Shown: positions 11,476 through 64,000, counted from the first letter of the stretch. The stretch is 64,000 bases of DNA from Deltaproteobacteria bacterium (GCA_029262515.1 JAJCZH010000038.1:1-64000), one strand, 5' to 3'. Translations and numbers: made by a program. Notes: generated by a model not told the origin, from the sequence alone.

Positions 11476-12174
11476 ATGGATCGATTGTTGAATGGAATAA
11501 AAGATTTTCAGCTGAATTATTACAAAGAGGAAGAGGAGTCCTTCAAGGCACTCGCCAAAGGACAGTCCCCCGAGGTACTGTTCTTTGCATGCTCAGACTC
11601 CCGCGTGGACCCGAACATGATCACACAGAGTAAACCCGGAGACCTCTTTATCGTCCGAAATGTCGGTAGCATTGTTCCAGACTGCGGCCCCCACTGGAAA
11701 AAGAGCTGTACCGGCGCTGCCATAGAGTTTGCGCTACAGTCGCTATCCGTCTCGGACATAGTCGTCTGCGGCCACTCGGACTGCGGAGCGATGAAGGCGC
11801 TCTATCAAGACCCAGATTCCTTCAAAGACTCGCCTAACCTCAAGGAATGGGTCGATACGGCGGCGCATGTCAAGGGCTTGATCGACGCCACCAACGACAA
11901 ACCGACCTTTAAGAAACTGATCGAGATAACGACCAAGGAACATATACTAGAGTCGCTGGAAAACCTGAAGAGCTACCCTATCATTGCCGACGCGATAAAA
12001 GCGGGCAAACTGAACCTTCACGGCTGGTACTACGACTTAGGAAACGGCTCTGTGCATATCTACAACAGTAAAGAAGACAGCTTTGAGCAGATAGCACACC
12101 ACAGTAATGGGGAAGAGAGCTTCCATACTCACTCCTCTGAGACAAAAGAGAGGACCTGTACGCACGAGGCCTGA
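11476..12174 (+). CDS. Beta-class carbonic anhydrase
   Basis: The 232-residue protein has the complete beta-carbonic anhydrase site: CSDSRVDP (zinc Cys and the Asp-Arg dyad), FIVRNVG and GHSDCGAM (zinc His and Cys). It interconverts carbon dioxide and bicarbonate in the cytoplasm. The C-terminal 25 residues are His- and Ser-rich (AHHSNGEESFHTHSSE) and look like an optional metal-binding tail. An AAAGGAGG lies about 11 bases before the ATG. A strong terminator follows, so this ends a transcription unit that may begin with the EndoQ gene. Confidence 0.95.
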   Translation: MDRLLNGIKDFQLNYYKEEEESFKALAKGQSPEVLFFACSDSRVDPNMITQSKPGDLFIVRNVGSIVPDCGPHWKKSCTGAAIEFALQSLSVSDIVVCGHSDCGAMKALYQDPDSFKDSPNLKEWVDTAAHVKGLIDATNDKPTFKKLIEITTKEHILESLENLKSYPIIADAIKAGKLNLHGWYYDLGNGSVHIYNSKEDSFEQIAHHSNGEESFHTHSSETKERTCTHEA

Positions 12175-12230
12175 CACTTCACTCCGTTAGCTGCCGCACG
12201 CACAGTCCCTTTATAATACAAAACCTTACG

Positions 12231-12268
12231 GATAATGCCGGGCTTTTTGCCCGGCATTATCTTATTTC
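12231..12268 (+). terminator. Rho-independent terminator
   Basis: A 13-bp perfect stem, GATAATGCCGGGC-TTTTT-GCCCGGCATTATC (12231-12261), followed by TTATTTC. It terminates the carbonic anhydrase transcript. Confidence 0.88.
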
Positions 12269-12380
12269 AACCTTTTAACGGATCCAACAACGTAAGCTCT
12301 TCCAAAACCCTTCCATCACAGAAGAATGTAAGATAGAATAGAGGCCAATTGAATCAAGGCCAGACTGACCAACAGAAAAA

Positions 12381-13598
12381 ATGAAAAAAATGAGTAGAAT
12401 GTATAATAAAATACTGCTCTGCCTCGACAACTCGGAGCACTCGACAACAGCCATTGACTTCGCACTCTCTTTTGCCAAGTCAACCGGGGCGGAAGTAACC
12501 GGTTGCCATGTCTATGCGGCAAAACTTCACGACTCAAGGTTTGCGGAAATGGAGAGCGGCCTTCCTGAGAGGTACCAGAACCCGGAAGAGTTGACGCGTC
12601 AGAGGGTTATCCACGACGATCTTATCACAAAGGGGCTTCTGACAATTTCCGACTCTTACATCGACGTACTGGTCAATAAGGCGCAAGGGTTCGGTATCAC
12701 AACAAAGTCCGTACACCTGGAAGGTCGAAATTTCGAAGAGATCGTAAAAGAGAGCATCAGAGGTGAGTACGATATGGTCGTGCTCGGCGCACTCGGATTA
12801 GGCGCCACCAGCAAAAGCTCTTCCGGCTCCGTTACCCGCAGGGTAGCGCGCATGGCCAACACCGACGTATTGATCGTACGCGATACAGGCTTTAACCAAA
12901 ACAGTTCCGGCAAGATTGCCGTTGCTATAGACGGAAGCCCGCACTCGTTCGGCGCGCTAAAAAGCGCCATTGAGTTCTCGCGCACCTTCTCATGCGAAAT
13001 CGAGGCAGTCAGCGCCTTTGACCCTGTTTTTCACTACACCGCATTCCGTTCTATCGCCGGGGTCTTGAGCGAAGAGGCTGGCAAGATCTTCAGGTTCAAA
13101 GAACAGGAGAAGCTCCATAAAGAGATCATCGACGACGGACTCGAGAAGATTTACCGGCGCCACCTCGACACAGCCGTGATGGTTGCAAAATCAGAAGGGG
13201 TCGATATAGCAACCAGGCTCTTTTCCGGCAAGGCAACCGACGAGGTCATGGGCTACCTCAGCAAAGAGGAGCCGTTCCTGCTCGTTACAGGTAAAACCGG
13301 GCTTCACGCCACAGAAGATCTCGACATAGGAAACCTCACCGAAGAGTGCTTAAACGGTGTAAACTGCAATATGTTAATTACCACATCAACTTATACTCCA
13401 ACTACGATAGACACCGATTGCAGTACCGCTGCGTGCAGACCCCACTGGAGTTTGGAAGCAGAAGAGATACTGAACAAGATACCCTCGTTTGCACGCGCAA
13501 TCGCGCGAAACATGGTCGAGCAGAGCGCGATTAAAGAGGGTATGGACGAGATAGATGCAGACTTCATGTACGAGATAAGAAAACGGACGGGTTTTTAA
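12381..13598 (+). CDS. Tandem universal stress protein with C-terminal PCP_red domain
   Basis: The 405-residue protein has two UspA domains. The first (about 7-170) starts MYNKILLCLDNSEHS and ends with the ATP-loop GALGLGATSKSSSGSVTRR; the second (about 175-335) starts GKIAVAIDGSPHSFGALKSA and has VTGKTGLH with a less canonical loop. The last 50 residues (WSLEAEEILNKIPSFARAI onward) fit the PCP_red domain (PF08369), which follows the catalytic part of the light-independent protochlorophyllide reductase B subunit. It is followed after 3 bases by a radical SAM gene that ends in the same domain, so the two are surely co-transcribed and probably work together. Start choice is weak: ATGs at 12381, 12390 and 12399 are possible, and none has a strong ribosome-binding site. 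Confidence 0.85.
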   Translation: MKKMSRMYNKILLCLDNSEHSTTAIDFALSFAKSTGAEVTGCHVYAAKLHDSRFAEMESGLPERYQNPEELTRQRVIHDDLITKGLLTISDSYIDVLVNKAQGFGITTKSVHLEGRNFEEIVKESIRGEYDMVVLGALGLGATSKSSSGSVTRRVARMANTDVLIVRDTGFNQNSSGKIAVAIDGSPHSFGALKSAIEFSRTFSCEIEAVSAFDPVFHYTAFRSIAGVLSEEAGKIFRFKEQEKLHKEIIDDGLEKIYRRHLDTAVMVAKSEGVDIATRLFSGKATDEVMGYLSKEEPFLLVTGKTGLHATEDLDIGNLTEECLNGVNCNMLITTSTYTPTTIDTDCSTAACRPHWSLEAEEILNKIPSFARAIARNMVEQSAIKEGMDEIDADFMYEIRKRTGF

Positions 13599-53637: not shown

Positions 53638-55731
53638 ATGAGTAAGCGTACGTTAAGTGTTCTTCTAATAGACGATGATGAGCAGGTCTATCTCATAATT
53701 AAAGAGATGTTGTCCACACTAAAGACAATAAAATATGATGTCGAGTGGGTCTCTAACTACAATGATGCACTTCAGGCGCTTGAGAAGAGTAGGCACGACG
53801 TCTGCTTAATGGACTACTGTCTCAACGGTATTAATGCCCGTGGCCTTCTATACGAAGTGGTGGCAAATGGCTGTGGAATGCCGGTAATATTGCTTATCGA
53901 CCATGATGATGTAGATTCAATGGATGCCGAACACATAGATTATTTGATAAAGAAGCAGGCCACACCTTCCTTGATTGAACGTACCATCCGCCACTCTATA
54001 AAATACAGGTATGCAGAAGATAAGCTTAAAGCAGCTGATGAGTATGCAGAAAACCTGATCAACTGCTCTATCGACATGATTATTGCCGTTAACCTTGAGC
54101 GCAAAATAGTAGAGTTCAACCCGGCTGCTGAAGAGGTCTTTGGCTACAGCAAGAAAGAGGTACTCGGAAAGGCTGTCGATATGCTCTACGACAAGCCTAC
54201 TCAAGGCCTTATAATGAACAAGAAGATCGGAAGGGACGGCAAGTACTCAGGTGAAGTAGTCAGTAAAAAGAAGAACGGAGAGACATTTGTCGTATTCCTC
54301 TCCGCATCAAAATTAAAGGACACAAACGGTAATGAGATCGGTTCAATGGGAATATCCCGAGATATAACCGAGCGCAAGCGACTTGAGGAGCAGCTCACAC
54401 ATAATGCATTTCATGATTCCCTGACCAACCTGCCCAACAGAGACCTTTTGTACAACCGCTTGAAGTACGCGATCGATCGTACAAAGAGGAACAAGAGTTA
54501 CCTCTATGCCGTACTCTTCCTGGATGTTGACAGGTTCAAAATTATAAACGACAGCCTCGGTCACGCTACCGGAGATAAACTTCTTGTCGCTATCACCAAA
54601 AGGCTTGAGTCATGCCTGCGTACCACGGATATGATAGCCCGCTTCGGAGGAGATGAGTTCACGATACTACTTGATGATATTGAAAAACCGGCCTCTGCGA
54701 TTGAAGTCGCCGACCGACTTCTGGAAAGCCTGAAAGAGCCTTTCGAGTTCGACGGTCAAAAACTCTCTACCAGCGTAAGTATCGGGATAGTACTGGGTGA
54801 GCAGAACTATAGCCAGCCTGAAGAGCTCTTGAGGGACGCCGATACGGTAATGTATATGGCCAAATCACTCGGTAAGTCCAGATATGCAATCTTTGATTCA
54901 AGAATGCACTCTCAGATGGTAAAGGTCATGCGACTTGAAGCCGATATGCGCCGTGCCATAGAGGAAGAGGAGTTTAAGGTCTACTTCCAACCGATAGTCT
55001 CTTTAAAAGACGGGCAGATTAGCGGAGTGGAGGCCCTGGTACGATGGGAAGACCCCGAACGCGGAATGATATCACCCGGTGAGTTTATTCCTCTGGCAGA
55101 AGAGACCGGCTTGATAGAGCCGATCGGAACATGGGTGCTGCAACAGGCATGTCTGCAATGTAAAGCCTGGATAGATGCAGGACACACGGAATTATATGTA
55201 TCGGTAAATGTTTCACCTCGTCAATTTCAGAACCAGTTTCTGCTGGAGATCATTAAAAAAACCCTCAAAGAGACCGGTATGCCTGCGAGCAGCTTAAAGC
55301 TCGAAATTACGGAAACCATGGCTATGAATGACACAAACTATAGTAGCACGATCTTACATGAGTTGAACTCTCTGGGGTTGGAAATTTTCATGGATGATTT
55401 CGGCACAGGTTATTCTGCAATAAACTACTTACAACGCTTTCCTGTAGACACGATAAAAATTGACCGCTCGCTGGTTAAGAACATAGCCGTCAAACCCGAT
55501 GCCGCATCAATTACCAGTGCCATTATTACTTTGGCACATAGCCTAAAGAAAAGTATTATCGCAGAGGGAGTGGAGACCGAAGAGCAACAAGAGTTGTTAC
55601 GCCTTCAGCAATGTGACAAGATACAAGGTTACCTGTTTAGCAAACCGGTACCTGCAAAAGAGATCACCAGGTTATTAAAGGAAGGCCGGTCTCTGGCATT
55701 GATTTTGGAACCGAAAAAGTCATCAGCCTGA
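53638..55731 (+). CDS. REC-PAS-GGDEF-EAL cyclic-di-GMP signalling protein
   Basis: The 697-residue protein has a receiver domain (about 5-125, LLIDDDEQVYL and the acceptor Asp in VCLMDYCLN), a PAS domain (about 140-255, ending ISRDITERKRLEEQ), GGDEF (about 258-425) and EAL (about 440-690). The GGDEF site reads RFGGDEFTILL and the inhibitory I-site RTTD lies five residues before it. The EAL site has GVEALVRWEDPERG and DDFGTGYSAINYLQ. Both enzyme sites look intact, so it may make and degrade cyclic di-GMP under control of a partner kinase. ATG has GGAGAAG upstream. Confidence 0.93.
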   Translation: MSKRTLSVLLIDDDEQVYLIIKEMLSTLKTIKYDVEWVSNYNDALQALEKSRHDVCLMDYCLNGINARGLLYEVVANGCGMPVILLIDHDDVDSMDAEHIDYLIKKQATPSLIERTIRHSIKYRYAEDKLKAADEYAENLINCSIDMIIAVNLERKIVEFNPAAEEVFGYSKKEVLGKAVDMLYDKPTQGLIMNKKIGRDGKYSGEVVSKKKNGETFVVFLSASKLKDTNGNEIGSMGISRDITERKRLEEQLTHNAFHDSLTNLPNRDLLYNRLKYAIDRTKRNKSYLYAVLFLDVDRFKIINDSLGHATGDKLLVAITKRLESCLRTTDMIARFGGDEFTILLDDIEKPASAIEVADRLLESLKEPFEFDGQKLSTSVSIGIVLGEQNYSQPEELLRDADTVMYMAKSLGKSRYAIFDSRMHSQMVKVMRLEADMRRAIEEEEFKVYFQPIVSLKDGQISGVEALVRWEDPERGMISPGEFIPLAEETGLIEPIGTWVLQQACLQCKAWIDAGHTELYVSVNVSPRQFQNQFLLEIIKKTLKETGMPASSLKLEITETMAMNDTNYSSTILHELNSLGLEIFMDDFGTGYSAINYLQRFPVDTIKIDRSLVKNIAVKPDAASITSAIITLAHSLKKSIIAEGVETEEQQELLRLQQCDKIQGYLFSKPVPAKEITRLLKEGRSLALILEPKKSSA

Positions 55732-55793: not shown

Positions 55794-57722
55794 TCAACTA
55801 CCCTTTTCCGAAAGTACCTTATGTACCTCTACCTCTAACGCATTCGCATCATACGGTTTGGAGATCACACCACAGAAACCATACTCCTTAAAATCAGCCA
55901 TTACAGGGTCATGTGAGTACCCGCTTGAAACGATTACCTTGGCCTGTGGATCGATCTCCAGAAGCCCTTTGATGGTCTCTTTACCACCCATCCCTCCGGG
56001 TATGGTCAGGTCCATTATCACAAGGTCAAAAGGCCTTTTAGATAGCTTGGCTTCCAGGTATAGATCTATTGCCGTATCACCATCCCCGGCCTGGCTCACC
56101 TCATACCCTGCTCCGGACAGGACACGGTCAGCGACTTTTCTGACAAGTTCTTCATCATCCATCACAAGTATCCTGCCCCCCCTTTTCACGGGTTCGGTGA
56201 CACGGGACTGCTCTCTTGGCGCTACCTTAACAGTCTTGCTCTTGGAGGCGGGAAGATAGATCATAAAGGTCGTACCGACCCCGACCACCGAATCAACTGA
56301 AATATGTCCTTCGTGGTTCTTTATGATGGAGCTTACAATCGCAAGCCCGAGACCGCTTCCCTCTTCCTTAGTCGTATAATAGGGGTCGAAAACCTTATCG
56401 AGGTTCTCACTCGCTATGCCGGCACCCTCATCCTTGATACTCAGCTTCACATACTTTCCCGCCTTCAGGTTAGACCGGTTGCCTGAGGCAATAGTTATGT
56501 TCTCGGCCCTGACCTCTACTACCCCGCCATCCAGCATAGACTGTTCTGCATTGATAATAAGGTTTTGCAAAACCTGGTTGACCTGGCTTTTGTCTGCCTC
56601 AACAGGCCACAGGTCGTCTTGAATGGAGAGATCACACCTTACATTGGAGCCTCTCGTGGCAAAACCGGCCGCACCTTTTATCAGCCCACTTATATCAAGA
56701 ACCAGTTCCTTAACTGGCATTCCGCCCCTTGCAAAGGTTATCAGCTGCGTGGTCAGTTCCTTTGCCTGTAACGTAGCTCTCTCTGCATCCCTCAGGCTCT
56801 CCAGAACTACCCCTTCGGGTTTGTTCTTGTAGACCCGAACCTCAGGATCCTCTATCTGTGTCGCAAAGGAGATATTGGCCATAATAGCGGTCAGAAGGTT
56901 ATTATAATCGTGGGCTATGCCTCCGGCAAGTATTCCCAGCGACTCAAGTTTCTGCCCTTTTAGCAGATCCTCGGCCATACGCATCCGGTCGAGTTCGGCA
57001 CGCCTAAGCCTCATAGCCACCAGGATTATCGCTCCGGAGCCCAAGAGCCACAGCAATAAATGGGCATATACAAAGGTTGTTGCTGACTTGGATGCCGTTA
57101 CCCGTAACGGTTTCATGGGAAACATAATGCTGATAGCTCCTTGCACGTCACCCTCGGAGTAACCCTGCCCGGCGTGGCACCTCAAGCAGCTTTTCTCGGC
57201 AATCAGGGGCCGCATCAGGCGCATCTGTTCGGCCCCGCCTACCTCCATGGTAGCGCTCACCCCCCAAGACTCTCCAACCTCTATCCTCTTAAGAACTTCA
57301 GCCTCCCACTTGTCGGGCCGGTTGTTGGGATTTAACGGGGCAAGGCTTACAATGCGCTCTGTTGTACTATGTTCCGTCTTTGTCATCTCGTGGACCTTGC
57401 GCATCATAAAAGCGGGGTTCATCAGCGTCAACGTCTTACCGGACGGCGTCGTTATATCACGTTCAGGTATGTTGCTCATATACGGATTAGGCTGAAGGTC
57501 ATCGGTAACCTCTACGTAAATACCGCCGTGCTCGTTGTTCCAGCGGCGGTATGTCATATTCATATCATAAGCCGCCTCCACCTGGACGAGAGCCAGCTCA
57601 GTAACCCTGTTCCTCAACTCATAAAGGTTCCACACAAGAGAGACAATGATAATCATCGTCCAGGCCGCCATAATAACCACAACCAGCGGGCGGGACGTCT
57701 TATTCTCTTTGTAGGTTCCCAT
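55794..57722 (-). CDS. Haem-c-sensing hybrid histidine kinase
   Basis: From the ATG at 57722 (GAGGA 7 bases upstream; another ATG lies two codons before) the protein is 642 residues. After a membrane helix (VVVIMAAWTMIIIVSLVWNL) comes a periplasmic DUF3365/Tll0287-like domain with a c-type haem site CLRCHAGQG (about residues 190-196), then a second helix, an H-box (GGIAHDYNNLLTAIMAN), HATPase G-boxes (DEGAGIA, GSGLGLA) and a receiver domain with VIMDLTIPGG. The haem suggests sensing of redox state, oxygen or nitric oxide in the periplasm. Its output partner is not adjacent. Confidence 0.92.
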   Translation of the reverse strand: MGTYKENKTSRPLVVVIMAAWTMIIIVSLVWNLYELRNRVTELALVQVEAAYDMNMTYRRWNNEHGGIYVEVTDDLQPNPYMSNIPERDITTPSGKTLTLMNPAFMMRKVHEMTKTEHSTTERIVSLAPLNPNNRPDKWEAEVLKRIEVGESWGVSATMEVGGAEQMRLMRPLIAEKSCLRCHAGQGYSEGDVQGAISIMFPMKPLRVTASKSATTFVYAHLLLWLLGSGAIILVAMRLRRAELDRMRMAEDLLKGQKLESLGILAGGIAHDYNNLLTAIMANISFATQIEDPEVRVYKNKPEGVVLESLRDAERATLQAKELTTQLITFARGGMPVKELVLDISGLIKGAAGFATRGSNVRCDLSIQDDLWPVEADKSQVNQVLQNLIINAEQSMLDGGVVEVRAENITIASGNRSNLKAGKYVKLSIKDEGAGIASENLDKVFDPYYTTKEEGSGLGLAIVSSIIKNHEGHISVDSVVGVGTTFMIYLPASKSKTVKVAPREQSRVTEPVKRGGRILVMDDEELVRKVADRVLSGAGYEVSQAGDGDTAIDLYLEAKLSKRPFDLVIMDLTIPGGMGGKETIKGLLEIDPQAKVIVSSGYSHDPVMADFKEYGFCGVISKPYDANALEVEVHKVLSEKGS

Positions 57723-57926
57723 TGGCATTCCTCGGTCTTATAAACTTCGTGTTTTGCGAATAGCTAAAAAACTTACTTCAAGTAGTGGTAGATGAAGAGC
57801 CCTGATGAAGTGCAATTAGTTAATATTATAACCTCTATCTCGACCTACCGTCAAGCATACAGCTTAGACAATATTACAGATCACGTGAACCACATAAAAC
57901 TCTATAGAGCTTTACTTACTAGTTAG

Positions 57927-58169
57927 CCTGACAACTCCATTAATTCTTTAATCGAACCCAACCATCCACGTACAATTACTTTAGCAATAGCCACTTACCG
58001 CGTCTCAAGCATCATAAACGCGTACTGTATCTCACTTGAAGCATGGAAGGACCTCGGCCTTTCTATAGACATTATTCCCGAGATTATGCAGTGTATTGAA
58101 AGAGTCAGCCAAGTCGCAGGTACTGATGGCACTGGCGTAGAATTTCGGTCTAGACTTAATACAGTTTAG
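57927..58169 (+). other. Possible gene remnant
   Basis: Within the 1.26-kb gap 57729-58989 an 80-codon frame open from stop to stop reads SLEAWKDLGLSIDIIPEIMQ and is less A+T-rich than its surroundings. It has no suitable start. It may be the tail of a lost gene. The rest of 57729-58247 holds nothing I can name. Confidence 0.3.
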
Positions 58170-58247
58170 TCTTACGATCTTCACCCACAAATACCCTGAC
58201 TACCATCTGCCGGCTCAGGATCATGTATATTCTTTCGATTTATTATC

Positions 58248-58285
58248 TTTTTAGATATCTTCATGTACCTGAAGATATCTAAAAA
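58248..58285. other. 16-bp hairpin
   Basis: A perfect 16-bp inverted repeat (TTTTTAGATATCTTCA, six-base loop, TGAAGATATCTAAAAA). It lacks a T-run outside the stem, so it may be a bidirectional stop or a protein site. It lies just upstream of the sigma-54 control region. Confidence 0.6.
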
Positions 58286-58344
58286 CCTCACCACTTTATA
58301 ATTCCACCCGGACCAATAAAAAGATGTAATCTCCCCAAGTACAG

Positions 58345-58362
58345 TGTCGAAATTCTTTACAC
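58345..58362 (+). promoter_or_regulatory. Putative enhancer-binding site UAS1
   Basis: TGTCGAAATTCTTTACAC. It matches 58433-58450 at 15 of 18 positions and has TGT/ACA dyad ends. It is centred about 230 bases before the predicted sigma-54 start site. Confidence 0.55.
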
Positions 58363-58432
58363 ATATGTTCTCATCCTAAGTACCTTAGAATATTGAACTA
58401 TCTTGCAGACGAATATATTTCCACAGATATAA

Positions 58433-58450
58433 TGTCGAACTTTCTTACAC
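58433..58450 (+). promoter_or_regulatory. Putative enhancer-binding site UAS2
   Basis: TGTCGAACTTTCTTACAC, the second copy, 88 bases downstream of the first. It is centred about 140 bases before the predicted start site. Confidence 0.55.
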
Positions 58451-58515
58451 TCTATTGCTCATTTGCATACTTAAATTGTGAACTGTATAAAAGGAAAGCA
58501 TAAGGTTACCTTAAT

Positions 58516-58528
58516 AATCCAGCACTTA
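58516..58528 (+). promoter_or_regulatory. IHF-like site
   Basis: AATCCA-GCAC-TTA matches the WATCAANNNNTTR consensus with one mismatch. It lies between the two upstream sites and the -24/-12 promoter, the usual place for IHF. Confidence 0.35.
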
Positions 58529-58556
58529 GGTGATCGGCATAGATAACCTTGCTAAA

Positions 58557-58572
58557 GGGCATGAAAATTGCA
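58557..58572 (+). promoter_or_regulatory. Sigma-54 (-24/-12) promoter
   Basis: GGGCATG-AAAA-TTGCA agrees with TGGCACG-N4-TTGCA at all but two positions, and the invariant GG and GC are 10 bases apart. Transcription would start near 58583 and leave a leader of about 400 bases. Confidence 0.65.
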
Positions 58573-58582
58573 ATTTATATTA

Positions 58583-58989
58583 CCTATACTACTCTAAAGA
58601 CTGGTCTCATTGCAGGCCTCAGAAAATGCAGCACCGGGTGCCTGTATATACAGCCTATTAACCTATGTAGCTGTATTATAGGTATTTTTTATCTGTATTA
58701 CACTGCTATATCTTTAAGGGTTTTTGCACTTTCTTCCTTCTTCAAGGAGAGAGTGGCATCAAACAGGCTGACTGACTAACTTATCGTAAAACAGCATCAT
58801 TTCTAGCATTTTCTAAAAGACTCTTGGGTAGGTCTTGGATGGGTATTATGGGTATTAAGGTCAGTGACTATCGAGATTTCCTTTAATGCCCCAGGATGAC
58901 TCAAACAGGAGCCTAAAACATGTAGAAGAAGAGTATCGGCTATTACTTTCCAAAACTGCAATAAAAAACAGAAGAAAGGAAGGTTCAAA
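58583..58989 (+). other. Long 5-prime leader of the secreted-protein operon
   Basis: From the predicted start to the first gene. It contains the palindrome CTGTATATACAG (58642-58653) and a short GCACC/GGTGC hairpin just before it. AGAAAGGAAGG lies before the ATG at 58990. No known riboswitch is seen. Confidence 0.4.
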
Positions 58990-60258
58990 ATGGCAAATGT
59001 AAGACAGAAGTTGCGATTTGGCAGACCACTTTTAGTACTGGGCGGCCTGCTACTCAGCGCATCACTTGCTTCTGCGGGACCGGTATCTCTCGGTGATACC
59101 GCCCTCGATCAAGTGACGGCCGGTACCGGTACCAATCACGGCAGCAGCAGTAGCGGCAGCGGCGGAGCCATCATAGGAAACAGCTCGGTGGCAACTATCA
59201 GCCAGACCGGCGGTGTCACCTTGGAGGGTGAAGCGCAGAGCGGGGCCAAGGGGCTCAATCTCGTTAACAGCGCCGAGTCGACCGTTGCCAACGGCGTAAA
59301 CATCTGGGAAGTTAACGGAACAGAGCCAGGCGTAAATGACGGGCAGGCGGGCATAGAGCAGTCTAACATCATCCACCAGGAGCAGAGGCGCTCGGCATCT
59401 ATGCCCAACTACTCCCGCCCGGATGGAGACACTTTAACTGTTGTAGACCGTACCGGCTCCGAGGCGCATAACGACAGCTTCGACCGGAACAATAACCTTG
59501 TAGATACCCGGACAATTGCGAGTAACAGCACTACCAAGACTACAGCAAGTGTCAACACCTTAATTGAAGGCGGTCTCGATTCCGGCGGACCTGAAGATCC
59601 CAGAGGTAGTGTAACAACCAACCCCGGTAAAGGTGGAGCAGGCGCTGGAATTGTCAACCTCGGTGTCGATGGCGGTGAGGTGCATGTAGGACTGGCCGTT
59701 GGCGGACCCGTTACAGCCCATCCAGATGTTGTAACAACACTCGAGGGATCGGGAGGCCAGACTACCAGCGACAGTTATGGCGGTATGGATGTAGACGGTG
59801 ATAGTGTCTCACTCTACGGCAGACTGATTCTTCCTGATCTTACGATCGATATCAATGGCGCCGGTTGCGGAGTAGTAATGGGCTCCTGTACTGCCGGTGG
59901 TGAAACAGGCGATGTTAGCACCAATACAACGGACAACTCCGTAATGGACAACGAGCAGGCCAGCAGCGTCGGTAATAGTCAGTCCACCGACAATAGCACA
60001 AACACCTATCGTTCACCCTTTGAACTGAATAACGCACAGGCTGAGTACATAGTTGTTGACGACTCGAGTCTCACGGTCAACACTACATTCAACCTGACGC
60101 TCTCAGGCAGTGCGCAGAACAATGCCAACGGCATGAACATAGTCAATGCCACCGGAAGCGCAGTAGCCAACGGCGTTAACGTTGCCCGTACCGGCCAGCT
60201 CTCAAGCAGCGGTGCTCTGGGGCTTAGCCAGACTAACGTAATAAGTCACAGCCGTTAA
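58990..60258 (+). CDS. Secreted Asn/Gln-rich repeat protein, Fap-like amyloid candidate 1
   Basis: The 422-residue protein has a Sec signal peptide (about 1-29), then LGDTALDQVTAG (34-45), a motif shaped like a double-glycine leader, then a Gly/Ser stretch. Two copies of a repeat module follow: about 75-137 (LEGEAQSGAKGLNLVNSAES, then VANGVNI) and 358-422 (LSGSAQNNANGMNIVNATGS, then VANGVNV, ending in LSQTNVISHSR). Between them lies a Gly/Asp/Thr-rich beta-like region with Cys293 and Cys300 (GAGCGVVMGSC). The pattern of GVN, N and Q spacing recalls FapB/FapC amyloid repeats. A role as a fibre subunit is inferred; no enzyme motif is present. Confidence 0.75.
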   Translation: MANVRQKLRFGRPLLVLGGLLLSASLASAGPVSLGDTALDQVTAGTGTNHGSSSSGSGGAIIGNSSVATISQTGGVTLEGEAQSGAKGLNLVNSAESTVANGVNIWEVNGTEPGVNDGQAGIEQSNIIHQEQRRSASMPNYSRPDGDTLTVVDRTGSEAHNDSFDRNNNLVDTRTIASNSTTKTTASVNTLIEGGLDSGGPEDPRGSVTTNPGKGGAGAGIVNLGVDGGEVHVGLAVGGPVTAHPDVVTTLEGSGGQTTSDSYGGMDVDGDSVSLYGRLILPDLTIDINGAGCGVVMGSCTAGGETGDVSTNTTDNSVMDNEQASSVGNSQSTDNSTNTYRSPFELNNAQAEYIVVDDSSLTVNTTFNLTLSGSAQNNANGMNIVNATGSAVANGVNVARTGQLSSSGALGLSQTNVISHSR

Positions 60259-60286
60259 TTCGGTATTCTGTTCAGCTCTGTTCACC

Positions 60287-60314
60287 CTTGTCCCGGCCCT
60301 CAGGCCGGGGCAAG
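60287..60314 (+). other. Intercistronic hairpin
   Basis: CTTGTCCCGGCC-CTCA-GGCCGGGGCAAG, a 12-bp stem with one G-T pair and no T-run. It lies between the first two secreted-protein genes and may stabilise the upstream mRNA or attenuate the operon. Confidence 0.6.
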
Positions 60315-60391
60315 AGCAAGCTGCGCAACAGATCGAACTCAACAGCCAACCAGGCAGACATAATTGTTTTCACAAGTTTTACAAGGTAGTT

Positions 60392-61654
60392 ATGGCAAAC
60401 AAAAAAAAGATAATGTTTTTGAGTGCAACTCTACTCTTAAGCGGTCTGCTGCTAAACGCACCGCAGGTTTATTCCGAACCGGTGGCTCTAAACGACAGAA
60501 CCATGGATACGGTTACGGCCGGTGACGCTACAAGTAACGCAGTAGAAGGCGGCGGGATAGTAGTCGGATACGGTTCAGGGACTGTCGCCAACCGTAACAC
60601 AGGGCTCGACCTCAACGGTGAAGCTCAGCATAATGCCCACGGGCTCAACATCGTAAACAGCACCGAGTCCGCTGTGGCCAATGTTGTCAATATCTGGGAC
60701 GGCAGCGGTGTGATAGCAACACAGGAAGAGAGCGGTACGGATTCCGGTGTTAAGATCAATCAGGTCAACAGCACCACTCAGGAGCAGGTTCGCTCTGCTA
60801 CGCTCTCCGGGTACGTAAGGTCCGAGGCCGACCATACTGAGACCTTGAGCCGTTTGAGCAACGAAAGCTACTCAAGCAAAATCGTCGACCATCATGACGT
60901 CACTAACATCTTGGAAGAGACCAGTGTAATCATCACAGAAACCAACGGTATAGTCGATACCCGTATCAAATTCAACCTCGGCGACAAGCTTTACGTTGAT
61001 GGACACCTCGGGCAGGGTATGGCTGCCGCCGGTCATACTGAGATCAACTTTGACGGCGGCTCAGCCGACATTGCTCTGGTGGTCAACGGAGGCATAAAGG
61101 TTGGGGCTGATACCGATTTAATAAAAAGTGCAATAGAAATCACGGGCATGGACCTCGGAGAGTCCAAACTCGAAGCCGGTATATATGCAGAGGCCCAAAT
61201 TTCCGTCGTCACCCAACTGGTGCTGCCCAAGCTGACGATAGTGCTCGACGGCGCAGGTTGCGCAGTGGCTATGGGATCGTGCAACGCCTCCAGTACGACC
61301 ACCGAGATTACAAATACGAAGACGGACAACTCCACGCTTGATATCATGGAAAACCACCAAATAGGACAGAGCTATTTTTCAGAAGTACAGACAAGCACCT
61401 ACCGTTCGCCCTTTGAGCTTAAAAGCGCCAAGGCAGAGTATATCGTAATCGACGACTCGACCCTTGAGCTCAACTCCGACGTCACGCTCGAACTCTCAGA
61501 CTCTGCCCAAAGAGATATCAAAGGCATGAACATAGTAAATGCCATAGGAAGTAACGTAGCGAACAGCACAAACGTCGCAAAAACTGCAAGATTTGAGGGT
61601 CGCAAAGCAACGCTGGTGCTCAACCAGTTCAATACCGTTAACCACGGTCACTAA
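60392..61654 (+). CDS. Secreted Asn/Gln-rich repeat protein, Fap-like amyloid candidate 2
   Basis: This 420-residue protein is a paralogue of the preceding gene product. It has a signal peptide (1-28), LNDRTMDTVTAG (33-44) and two repeat modules (LNGEAQHNAHGLNIVNSTES near 73-92, and LSDSAQRDIKGMNIVNAIGS near 369-388). Cys290 and Cys297 fall in GAGCAVAMGSC, spaced as in the first protein. The segment YRSPFEL-AEYIV-DDS before the last module is nearly identical in both. The middle parts differ, so the two may form distinct subunits of one structure. Confidence 0.75.
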   Translation: MANKKKIMFLSATLLLSGLLLNAPQVYSEPVALNDRTMDTVTAGDATSNAVEGGGIVVGYGSGTVANRNTGLDLNGEAQHNAHGLNIVNSTESAVANVVNIWDGSGVIATQEESGTDSGVKINQVNSTTQEQVRSATLSGYVRSEADHTETLSRLSNESYSSKIVDHHDVTNILEETSVIITETNGIVDTRIKFNLGDKLYVDGHLGQGMAAAGHTEINFDGGSADIALVVNGGIKVGADTDLIKSAIEITGMDLGESKLEAGIYAEAQISVVTQLVLPKLTIVLDGAGCAVAMGSCNASSTTTEITNTKTDNSTLDIMENHQIGQSYFSEVQTSTYRSPFELKSAKAEYIVIDDSTLELNSDVTLELSDSAQRDIKGMNIVNAIGSNVANSTNVAKTARFEGRKATLVLNQFNTVNHGH

Positions 61655-61730
61655 GACTTTACGATGGCGTTTTACCGATCTTATGGATAGTTAAATCGGG
61701 ATAATTTAACCAGACAAGTATAAAAAGCTT

Positions 61731-63446
61731 ATGAAACGTCTCTTCATAACAGCATTAATCGCCTCGGGGCTCATATACTCAGGGCCTGTACTGGCAGCAA
61801 CAACGCTCTCCGACACCGAACTTGCTGGGGTTAGCGGTGGTGGGATCGACCCCCACCTTGGGGGCCAGAGCCTGCCGCAGGAACAGCAACAACCTGAAAA
61901 GAATGAGAACGGATATGCGCCGCTCCGGCAACCGCAGAGTATCGACGGAATGGAACTGACTCCTGAGCTGTTTGCTATTTTACAGAGTAGAATCGATTCG
62001 GAGCGCCAAAGAAGACTTCTTTTGAACGGAACGACCCAGCAAAATGCAGTCGCGCTCAACCTCGAGAATATGCTGTCGAGTGACATTGTCTCAACCAACA
62101 ATATCTTTAACGGCGGCTCCATCTCTTTAGACGACGTAACAACAAACATTGAGATCAACCAAGCCAACGACGTGAACCAACGCCACCGTACTCAGGGCAG
62201 CCTGACCTCGTCCATTGCAGGGCACCGGTATGAAAAGAGCGAACTGCGCAGATCAGGCACCGAGAGTTTCGAGTATCGTACCTACTCATTAGTCGACCAG
62301 CATCACAAGAGTGAGTACCTGCGCACCTTCAGCAGTGGCAGCGCCGCCCATGTAGGCGAAACTTTCACTTCGTTAGACGACTTTACCGCCAATACCCTAC
62401 CGCTCGAACTCATTGAACCTAATGAGCTTTTTAGAGTCTTCAAGTTCGGTCCTTTCGGTAAGATCGTTGATTTAGGATGGTTCGGAGATGCAGGCGCAAC
62501 AATTGAGTACACCGGCATTGGATTTACCGGGCCGGGACTTACTATAGATACGATCAAAGCGGGCGGAACTGACAACAAGGACCTGATCTTCGGAACCAGC
62601 GTAACGGAGCCCAAGCTTGACTTCGGCCAAATAGACATCAAGGCATGTGTTAGTGCATGCTCACAACTGAAGTGGCCCAAACCGCCCTTTTCATTAGGCG
62701 GTAGGAGTATCCATCCCGAGTTCGCATTCGAGGACATGGCCCCTGAAGTAGAGAGGCTGAGCCTCAGTACCGGTTTAGACTTTGCCGGCATCGGCAATGG
62801 CACACCACTTTCGGCCACCCCCGGAACCTTCAAAGTTGACGGTGAGGTCTCTATAAAAGTTGTACCATACGCCACTGCAACCCTCGACCTGTCAAAGCTA
62901 AAGCTGTTGGGGGTGAGTGTGGGGCCGGTCATAGCAAAATTCGATCCCTTCGGAAATGGTACGGCCAAAACCAGTAAAACGTGGAGCTTCACTCTGGTTG
63001 ACGAGGACTTTGCCTTCGGACTGCTCGATAAGGAAATAAAGGTCGATGACATGGACCTTGAACTCGGAGACCCGGAGCACTTTTCCACCGAGAGACTCAT
63101 CAGCCAGGATAACGAACTCATCGTAGAGTACGACGCAATAGACGTCGCCGAAAGCTCTTTTAATGAATCGTATGTGCACTCCGCCTTTACAGGTGGGCAG
63201 ATGACTGGAGCCGAGGCTGAACTGCTTGCCCTGAGTGACGGAAGCCTTTCTGTGAACAACAATAGCACTGTAGCTCTTAGCGACAATTCCCAGCAGAATA
63301 TGCGGGTCTTCAACGGAGTAAACGCCGTCTCGTCAATAGCAGCAAACAGCCTCAATATGGGCCGCACGCCATCCTATAACGCAAGACCGAACGGTGCGCC
63401 GCAACTCTCGCTGAATCAGCAGAACCGTTTCAACCAGACACGGTAA
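61731..63446 (+). CDS. Secreted repeat protein, Fap-like component 3
   Basis: The 571-residue protein has a signal peptide (1-22) and LSDTELAGVSGG (26-37), the clearest double-glycine-like motif of the set. A Pro/Gln-rich stretch follows (43-70), then a first module (LLNGTTQQNAVALNLENMLS near 97-116) and a last module (ALSDNSQQNMRVFNGVNAVS near 513-532, ending SLNQQNRFNQTR). The long middle (about 180-500) is a non-repetitive beta-rich region with Cys in KACVSACS. It is larger and less repetitive than its neighbours, so it may be a nucleator, adhesin or cap. Confidence 0.72.
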   Translation: MKRLFITALIASGLIYSGPVLAATTLSDTELAGVSGGGIDPHLGGQSLPQEQQQPEKNENGYAPLRQPQSIDGMELTPELFAILQSRIDSERQRRLLLNGTTQQNAVALNLENMLSSDIVSTNNIFNGGSISLDDVTTNIEINQANDVNQRHRTQGSLTSSIAGHRYEKSELRRSGTESFEYRTYSLVDQHHKSEYLRTFSSGSAAHVGETFTSLDDFTANTLPLELIEPNELFRVFKFGPFGKIVDLGWFGDAGATIEYTGIGFTGPGLTIDTIKAGGTDNKDLIFGTSVTEPKLDFGQIDIKACVSACSQLKWPKPPFSLGGRSIHPEFAFEDMAPEVERLSLSTGLDFAGIGNGTPLSATPGTFKVDGEVSIKVVPYATATLDLSKLKLLGVSVGPVIAKFDPFGNGTAKTSKTWSFTLVDEDFAFGLLDKEIKVDDMDLELGDPEHFSTERLISQDNELIVEYDAIDVAESSFNESYVHSAFTGGQMTGAEAELLALSDGSLSVNNNSTVALSDNSQQNMRVFNGVNAVSSIAANSLNMGRTPSYNARPNGAPQLSLNQQNRFNQTR

Positions 63447-63467
63447 CCATTTTTCTGGAGTCACCTT

Positions 63468-63884
63468 ATGAACAGACAATATAGACTCTTATTCATGATA
63501 CTCTTTCTGGTAATTACAACTCTTCCTGCAAGGGTCTGGGGGTTCGAAGAGCTGACCAATCAGGAACTCAACGCCGTGACTGCCGGTAGCGTTGACCCGG
63601 CCTATGATACCTCAGAAGCATTGACTCGCATTCCCTTCCACTATACAGGCAGCAAGGGCAAGATTGACGGAGAAGTATTTGTGCTGCCCATGAACACCTT
63701 TAACCAGCAAGGAACACTACAGCTGATGGACAATGCCCAATCAAACCTGCGCTCGCTCATCAACGTCAATGCCGTCAACTCACCGGTGCAGATACTCTTG
63801 AACCTGAACATAAACATCAACTCCACTATAGGCAATGTCAATCAGCTCAACAATCTGCTCTCGGGTAAAGGGTCATGGCGCTAA
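63468..63884 (+). CDS. Short secreted repeat protein, Fap-like component 4
   Basis: The 138-residue protein has a signal peptide (1-25), LTNQELNAVTAG (29-40) and a single module (LQLMDNAQSNLRSLINVNAV then ILLNLNININ and NQLNN). It has no Cys. CTGGAG lies 8 bases before the ATG. Its size suggests a nucleator, chaperone or minor subunit. Its stop overlaps the start of the next gene (ATGGCGCTAA). Confidence 0.72.
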   Translation: MNRQYRLLFMILFLVITTLPARVWGFEELTNQELNAVTAGSVDPAYDTSEALTRIPFHYTGSKGKIDGEVFVLPMNTFNQQGTLQLMDNAQSNLRSLINVNAVNSPVQILLNLNININSTIGNVNQLNNLLSGKGSWR

Positions 63885-64000
63885 GCCCTTCAGTCTTCAG
63901 TCGCAAAGCGCTTCTTAATTTGCTCTCTATCTTTATATGCTGCATAACCATTACACCGGCATATTCAGCCAGCCGTGCCGGCGTGCGTGTTGGGGGGCTA
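63875..64000 (+). CDS. Exported protein, 5-prime part (possible C39-type peptidase)
   Basis: Only 42 residues are in the window. They form a Sec signal peptide (KALLNLLSIFICCITITPA, cleavage near YSA) and the start of the mature protein, SRAGVRVGGL. Overlap with the preceding gene shows translational coupling. In Fap operons a C39-like peptidase (FapD) with a short start of this kind follows the repeat proteins, and the double-glycine-like motifs upstream would suit it, but no catalytic Cys is visible here. The identity is a guess from context. Confidence 0.6.
   Translation, partial: MALSPSVFSRKALLNLLSIFICCITITPAYSASRAGVRVGGL

Follow-up and report, generated by a model that had tools for sequence, protein, structure and literature searches.

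The stretch of DNA analysed here (C38:1-64000, 64,000 nucleotides, referred to below as the window) is part of the 2.5 Mb assembly of an uncultured deltaproteobacterium, and its contig was also read past position 64000. Across the end of the window lies a cassette of six genes (58990 to about 65861), which encode four secreted repeat proteins (P1-P4), a C39 peptidase and a FapF-type porin. We regard this cassette as probably representing a diverged lineage, sister to the Fap functional-amyloid system, with leader maturation and surface fibres. A preliminary description of the window had recognized four consecutive Sec-exported proteins with a common module, which was borne out (58990-63884, all on the same strand), and had pointed beyond 64000 for a C39 peptidase and a FapF-type porin, both of which were found when the contig was read onward. 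Its assignment to a Fap-like system stands as regards the porin, the peptidase and a C39 tree in which the system is sister to canonical Fap; the amyloid state is presumptive. The most informative feature, a double-glycine leader on every subunit, was missing from that description.

Peptidase, porin and phylogeny

The peptidase gene (63875..64633, plus strand), which starts within the window (63875..64000), encodes a FapD/FilB-like, Sec-exported protein of 252 amino acids that matches Pfam C39 (1.6e-13), NCBIfam FilB (3e-33) and NCBIfam FapD (5e-29; unrounded 4.8e-29). It has an N-terminal hydrophobic signal, keeps the catalytic residues Q62, C68, H154 and D170, and has as its only PDB match 6MPZ, the double-glycine protease domain LahT150. 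The porin (64635-65861, 408 amino acids) begins 1 nt after the peptidase open reading frame (ORF) and matches NCBIfam FapF over residues 29-403 (2e-35; unrounded 2.2e-35), NCBIfam FilC (6e-17) and the FapF crystal structures (1e-19).

In a maximum-likelihood tree of C39 sequences (43 rows, unrooted, displayed with a midpoint root), canonical FapD formed a group of 11 rows (support 100/100), and the window-system clade, joined by Acidobacteria and one Azospirillum, a group of 15 rows (88/78). FapD and the window clade together formed one strongly supported group (99/96), with the Fil-type sequences of Acinetobacter, Pseudomonas and Alcanivorax outside. Because the window clade is thus grouped with canonical FapD, the system is, judged by its peptidase, closer to Fap than to Fil, even though NCBIfam FilB slightly outscores FapD.

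Leaders of the subunits

All four subunits carry the motif L-x4-[LM]-x2-V-x-[AG]-G right after the Sec signal. The leader of P1, LGDTALDQVTAG (positions -12 to -1; 59089..59124), is of the double-glycine type and lies directly behind the signal; those of P2, LNDRTMDTVTAG (60488..60523), P3, LSDTELAGVSGG (61806..61841), and P4, LTNQELNAVTAG (63552..63587), are likewise on the plus strand. The canonical C39 leader consensus, L(-12)xxxE(-8)L(-7)xxxxG(-2)G(-1) (PMC6959990), is fitted exactly by P3, which has V at -4, and, except for an A at -2, by P4; in P1 and P2 the E at -8 is missing, but the G at -1 and a hydrophobic residue at each of -12, -7 and -4 are retained. In LahT150, a hydrophobic groove holds Val-4, Leu-7 and Leu-12 of the leader (PMC6363468).

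The strict form of the pattern was found in 4 of 67 ORFs in the contig stretches, namely the four subunits (0/63 others), and in 14 of 1,230 ORFs over all loci scanned; 11 of these 14 were subunits of window-type systems, so that about 3/1,219 ORFs carried it elsewhere. A position-specific scoring matrix was trained on the leaders of the window order and of Desulfuromusa only and applied with a threshold of >=6 bits. In other lineages, 45% of the genes upstream of C39 reached this score, a lower bound because the upstream set contains regulators and spurious ORFs, as compared with 0/76 for the C39 proteins, 3% for exported proteins encoded farther downstream and 8% for shuffled sequences.

A related stretch, resembling [LIV]x[DENS]xx[LM]xx[MLI]RG[RK], stands behind the signal in all 18 FapE proteins examined (more loosely, and recognized by eye, in L137). 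A profile of 17 of them, aligned by the RG anchor only, matched the window leaders at offset 0, with 8/20,000 permutations as good, and the Fil leaders (consensus MDDxALSxVTGQDG) also aligned with the window leaders (17/20,000 permutations). By these alignments, FapE and the Fil subunits carry a degenerate form of the window leader. The FapB and FapC proteins examined showed no such leader behind the signal; high-scoring leader-like stretches in some FapB were inside the repeat, and several FapA have a related stretch, LSDADFxxMS, farther from the N-terminus. Many Pseudomonas (L033-L101) have, apart from the fap operon, a Fil-type C39-porin locus with an exported protein of 145-170 amino acids (ADLKAMDDSALSSVTGQDGI).

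The target of FapD has been called unclear (PMC5557850; PMC6173800), and the Fap proteins were said to be without canonical C39 sites (PMC5557850), yet Fap secretion needs FapD, and the active-site Cys of FapD is required for secretion of FapC (PMC5557850). FapE alone among the Fap proteins yielded no N-terminal peptides in mass spectrometry (PMC5557850), which fits a FapE that carries a leader-like stretch; the stretch suggests what FapD cuts. We lean slightly towards the view that Fap, Fil and the window lineage constitute one secretion class, defined by maturation in two steps, in which Sec export would be followed by cleavage of a double-glycine-type leader by the C39 peptidase in the periplasm and then by passage through a FapF-type barrel; FapE would be the substrate of FapD via LSDxELxxMRGRY. 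An incomplete literature search turned up no paper stating the leader motif in Fap, Fil or window systems.

The repeat module

The preliminary description had counted seven module copies distributed 2+2+2+1, and all seven were located, given here as 39-residue frames on the plus strand: in P1 at 59206..59322 (residues 73-111) and 60085..60201 (366-404), in P2 at 60596..60712 (69-107) and 61478..61594 (363-401), in P3 at 62007..62123 (93-131) and 63261..63377 (511-549), and in P4 at 63708..63824 (81-119). The module length of 60-70 residues given there applies only if the strand ending in LxQxN is counted; the conserved core has about 32-39 residues. A hidden Markov model (HMM) of the module built from the window clade gave domain E-values down to 1e-15 in Acidobacteria proteins outside the training set.

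The minimal Fap repeat has been described as X15-G-X4-N-X3-G-X6-N-X7 (PMC3792158), and the window module, G-X4-N-X3-S-X6-N, has the same frame with Ser for the second Gly (example pair: TFNLTLSGSAQNNANGMNIVNATGSAVANGVNVARTGQL versus TNTASLSGSAFSGASGNIGVNVASGTGNLQANSLALAVA). In an ungapped profile comparison with 112 repeats from canonical FapB and FapC, extracted by the published pattern, the best register was offset 0. Column permutations were as good in 75-89/20,000 cases for the window order, 13/20,000 for Acidobacteria and 19/20,000 for both combined (p about 0.001-0.004). The likeness to Fap repeats, previously noted as one of spirit, thus extends to an ungapped match in the same register, if a statistically modest one. 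The module is likely, though not proven, to be homologous to the Fap repeat.

Proposed mechanism and alternatives

In the favoured explanation, the four subunits would pass the inner membrane via Sec, after which the periplasmic C39 peptidase would dock on the leader behind the Sec signal through the hydrophobic positions -12, -7 and -4 and cleave behind A-G or G-G. Matured in this way and largely unfolded, the subunits would exit through the FapF-type barrel, and their modules, as diverged Fap repeats, would stack into cross-beta fibres on the cell surface. The main subunits may be P1 and P2, with P3 as a minor, decorated one and P4, with its one module, as a nucleator or anchor. What the sequence itself shows is the gene content, how peptidase and porin are related to known ones, the leaders and the repeated modules; the remainder of this scheme is inferred.

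Several results weigh against this explanation. The peptidase and the porin score far below the NCBIfam equivalog cut-offs (700 bits for FapF), and the HMM check proposed in the preliminary description failed for the subunits, which gave no match to NCBIfam FapB or FapC up to E 1 (both models match the Pseudomonas control). Alignment of module and Fap repeat with hhalign gave an E-value of 0.0013 as a single comparison, with a weak probability of 19%, and searches of the subunits with Fap-repeat HMMs, and the reverse, gave no score clearly above shuffles, so that the case for homology is made by the profile-profile tests. FapA and FapE had no NCBIfam match in the genome up to E 10; the FapE model had no match in any control genome either, although it does detect FapE elsewhere, and true Fap systems are often without FapA (PMC3792158). 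Structure prediction, proposed earlier as a check for stacked beta-arches, neither supports nor refutes them: the AlphaFold model of P1 was uninformative (predicted local distance difference test score 37), that of a repeat-rich long relative (L019) consisted of all-beta repeats, confident only in some module centres (predicted template modelling score 0.53), and Foldseek found no significant match of the latter in the PDB. The AlphaFold and Foldseek results were kept out of the evidence.

The same secretion route might instead deliver non-amyloid surface adhesins or matrix proteins in a more Fil-like system, with modules that are ordinary beta-arches or turns of a beta-solenoid. Fil substrates have the leader and the C39-porin pair in common with the window system but lack the Fap repeat, folded parts are suggested by the long linkers of P1 and P2 and by their C-x6-C loops, and the best, non-significant Foldseek matches of the repeat-rich relative are beta-helix proteins; but the C39 tree groups the window clade with Fap rather than Fil and the module keeps the Fap repeat register, and we consider this explanation unlikely. 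It is less likely still that the C39 protein leaves the subunits uncut and that the motif is a docking site only, in a chaperone role comparable to that of the C39-like domains of some type I systems. FapA to FapD gave mass-spectrometry peptides over their whole length, so some Fap substrates escape cleavage (PMC5557850), but the window peptidase retains its catalytic residues, and secretion is lost when the Cys of FapD is replaced by Ala (PMC5557850). Very improbable, finally, is a barrel acting as a COG4313-type uptake channel with the secreted proteins as its ligand-binding partners rather than fibres: FapF barrels do resemble COG4313 hydrophobic-substrate channels, but C39 peptidases are not reported alongside these (PMC6173800), and the porin matches FapF structures at 1e-19.

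Organization of the cassette

P1 (58990..60258, plus strand) is a Sec-exported subunit of 422 amino acids with two modules, whose ortholog in Desulfuromusa (L022:5265-6527) is 62% identical. P2 (60392..61654, plus strand; 420 amino acids, two modules) is a paralog of P1 with 39% identity across the length. P3 (61731..63446, plus strand), the longest subunit with 571 amino acids, has two modules flanking a long middle region, and P4 (63468..63884, plus strand) is a small subunit of 138 amino acids with one module and orthologs in Desulfuromusa, in its own taxonomic order and in Acidobacteria. Each of the four co-directional ORFs opens with a Sec-like signal. The six genes look like one operon because the gaps from P1 onward are 133, 76 and 21 nt, followed by an overlap of 10 nt between P4 and the peptidase and by the 1 nt before the porin. 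P1-P4 had no credible match in Pfam or NCBIfam. An interpretation as a locus for a ribosomally synthesized and post-translationally modified peptide or a bacteriocin was dropped, there being no adjoining ABC exporter and the subunits being repeat proteins of 138-571 amino acids.

The linkers between the modules of P1 and P2 contain a C-x6-C pair (GAGCGVVMGSC and GAGCAVAMGSC), also present in L015 and L016; the pair is conserved in Desulfobacterota long subunits, is absent from the Acidobacteria subunits aligned, and suggests a disulfide loop. Beyond the porin, a sodium:solute symporter is encoded on the opposite strand. On the 5' side, P1 is preceded by 1.26 kb of non-coding DNA (57730-58989) and, further upstream, by genes for a sensor kinase (55794-57728) and a GGDEF-EAL protein (53638-55731). 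Scans for sigma-54 and sigma-70 promoters gave sites no more frequent than chance. Large MalT-like ATPase/TPR regulators, of which there is none in the window, are encoded upstream of the Desulfuromusa cassette (L022:1609-4761) and of Pseudomonas Fil-type loci (C39 loci L033, L037, L039 and L066).

Distribution and significance

The C39-alignment search returned 80 named loci; an earlier contig search of the genomes with P2 as query had given no match. A porin homolog was found in 6 of 47 other genomes of the order. Two loci of the same order (L015, L016) have the same subunit type, the small subunit included, and four others (L017-L020, from G005, G035, G036 and G044) encode subunits of 600-820 amino acids with six to eight recognized modules where complete. 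In these long-subunit loci a conserved exported protein of 160-177 amino acids (FLQGTKHY ... CQTSRTxTxYWT) adjoins the porin gene (L017:185-715, L018:2700-3203, L019:8514-9002 and L020:6808-7302); the copy tested had no Pfam match. Nothing in the window cassette corresponds to this protein, which may be an additional component of the long-subunit subtype. G035 has two copies of the long repeat subunit, one to each side of the small-subunit gene (L020:9206-11110 and 11607-13409). Homologous loci occur in Granulicella, Edaphobacter and other Acidobacteria. The system is rare in the phylum, since the small-subunit profile had matches in no more than 3/395 genomes.

All six genes recur in identical order in Desulfuromusa sp. 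BB21 (L022), where the proteins are 49-76% identical to those of the cassette. Because nonsynonymous divergence (dN) between the two is 0.18-0.45 and synonymous divergence (dS) is saturated or 3.4, selection maintains all six proteins, which shows the genes to be genuine. No porin homolog was found in the two genomes of the same genus that were searched, and this absence, together with the presence in Desulfuromusa, suggests horizontal transfer of the cassette. At 4-11 kb downstream of the cassette (C38 about 69400-77000; L002:12429-19964) there are two insertion-sequence integrase-type transposase genes and one for a tyrosine recombinase, which, with the same absence, suggests that the region is mobile or was acquired recently.

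That such loci exist was known, since fapD-fapF pairs were noted earlier in five further phyla (PMC6173800); what appears to be new is the set of subunits, the connection of these with Fap repeats, and the leader joining Fap, Fil and the window lineage. Sequences and subunits are now attached to part of these reported but unstudied pairs outside Proteobacteria (PMC6173800), and the FapC fibre structure (PMC12392863) can now be compared with a divergent Fap-type repeat. Because every subunit has a clear C39 site and the register extends to 18/18 FapE, the target of FapD becomes a question for a simple mutagenesis test, and the maturation mechanism is directly testable.

Comparison with known systems

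Curli (Csg) resemble the window system in the idea of a repeat-protein fibre secreted via a dedicated outer-membrane channel, but porin and repeat are different, and no relative of CsgG, CsgE, CsgF or CsgA was seen in the cassette. The C39 ABC transporters (LahT, PCAT1, ComA) share the leader L(-12)xxxE(-8)L(-7)xxV(-4)xGG, the catalytic residues and the closest PDB entry, 6MPZ; their peptidase, however, is cytosolic and part of the ABC exporter, whereas that of the window is Sec-exported and its leaders stand behind a Sec signal.

Fil, the putative pilus of Acinetobacter (FilA-FilF) with relatives in Pseudomonas, has homologs of the peptidase (FilB) and porin (FilC) and a Sec signal followed by a similar leader. 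It differs in that FilA has a DUF6160 start and no Fap-type repeat (the window subunits did not match the FilA and DUF6160 models, which Acinetobacter L062 does), in further genes, including one for a long FadL-like protein, and in its position outside the group of Fap and the window clade.

From Fap proper (Pseudomonas fapABCDEF) the window system is set apart because the FapB, FapC and FapE models tested were not matched. Its repeat has S for the second Gly and VANGVN for NxQxN, its long subunits have two modules each as against three in Fap, and all its subunits carry a C39 leader, unlike the FapB and FapC examined; neither FapA nor FapE was found here. With Fap it shares a FapD-type periplasmic C39 peptidase, a FapF-type porin, several Sec-exported repeat subunits per operon, a module that lines up in register, if weakly, with the Fap repeat, and a sister position in the C39 tree.

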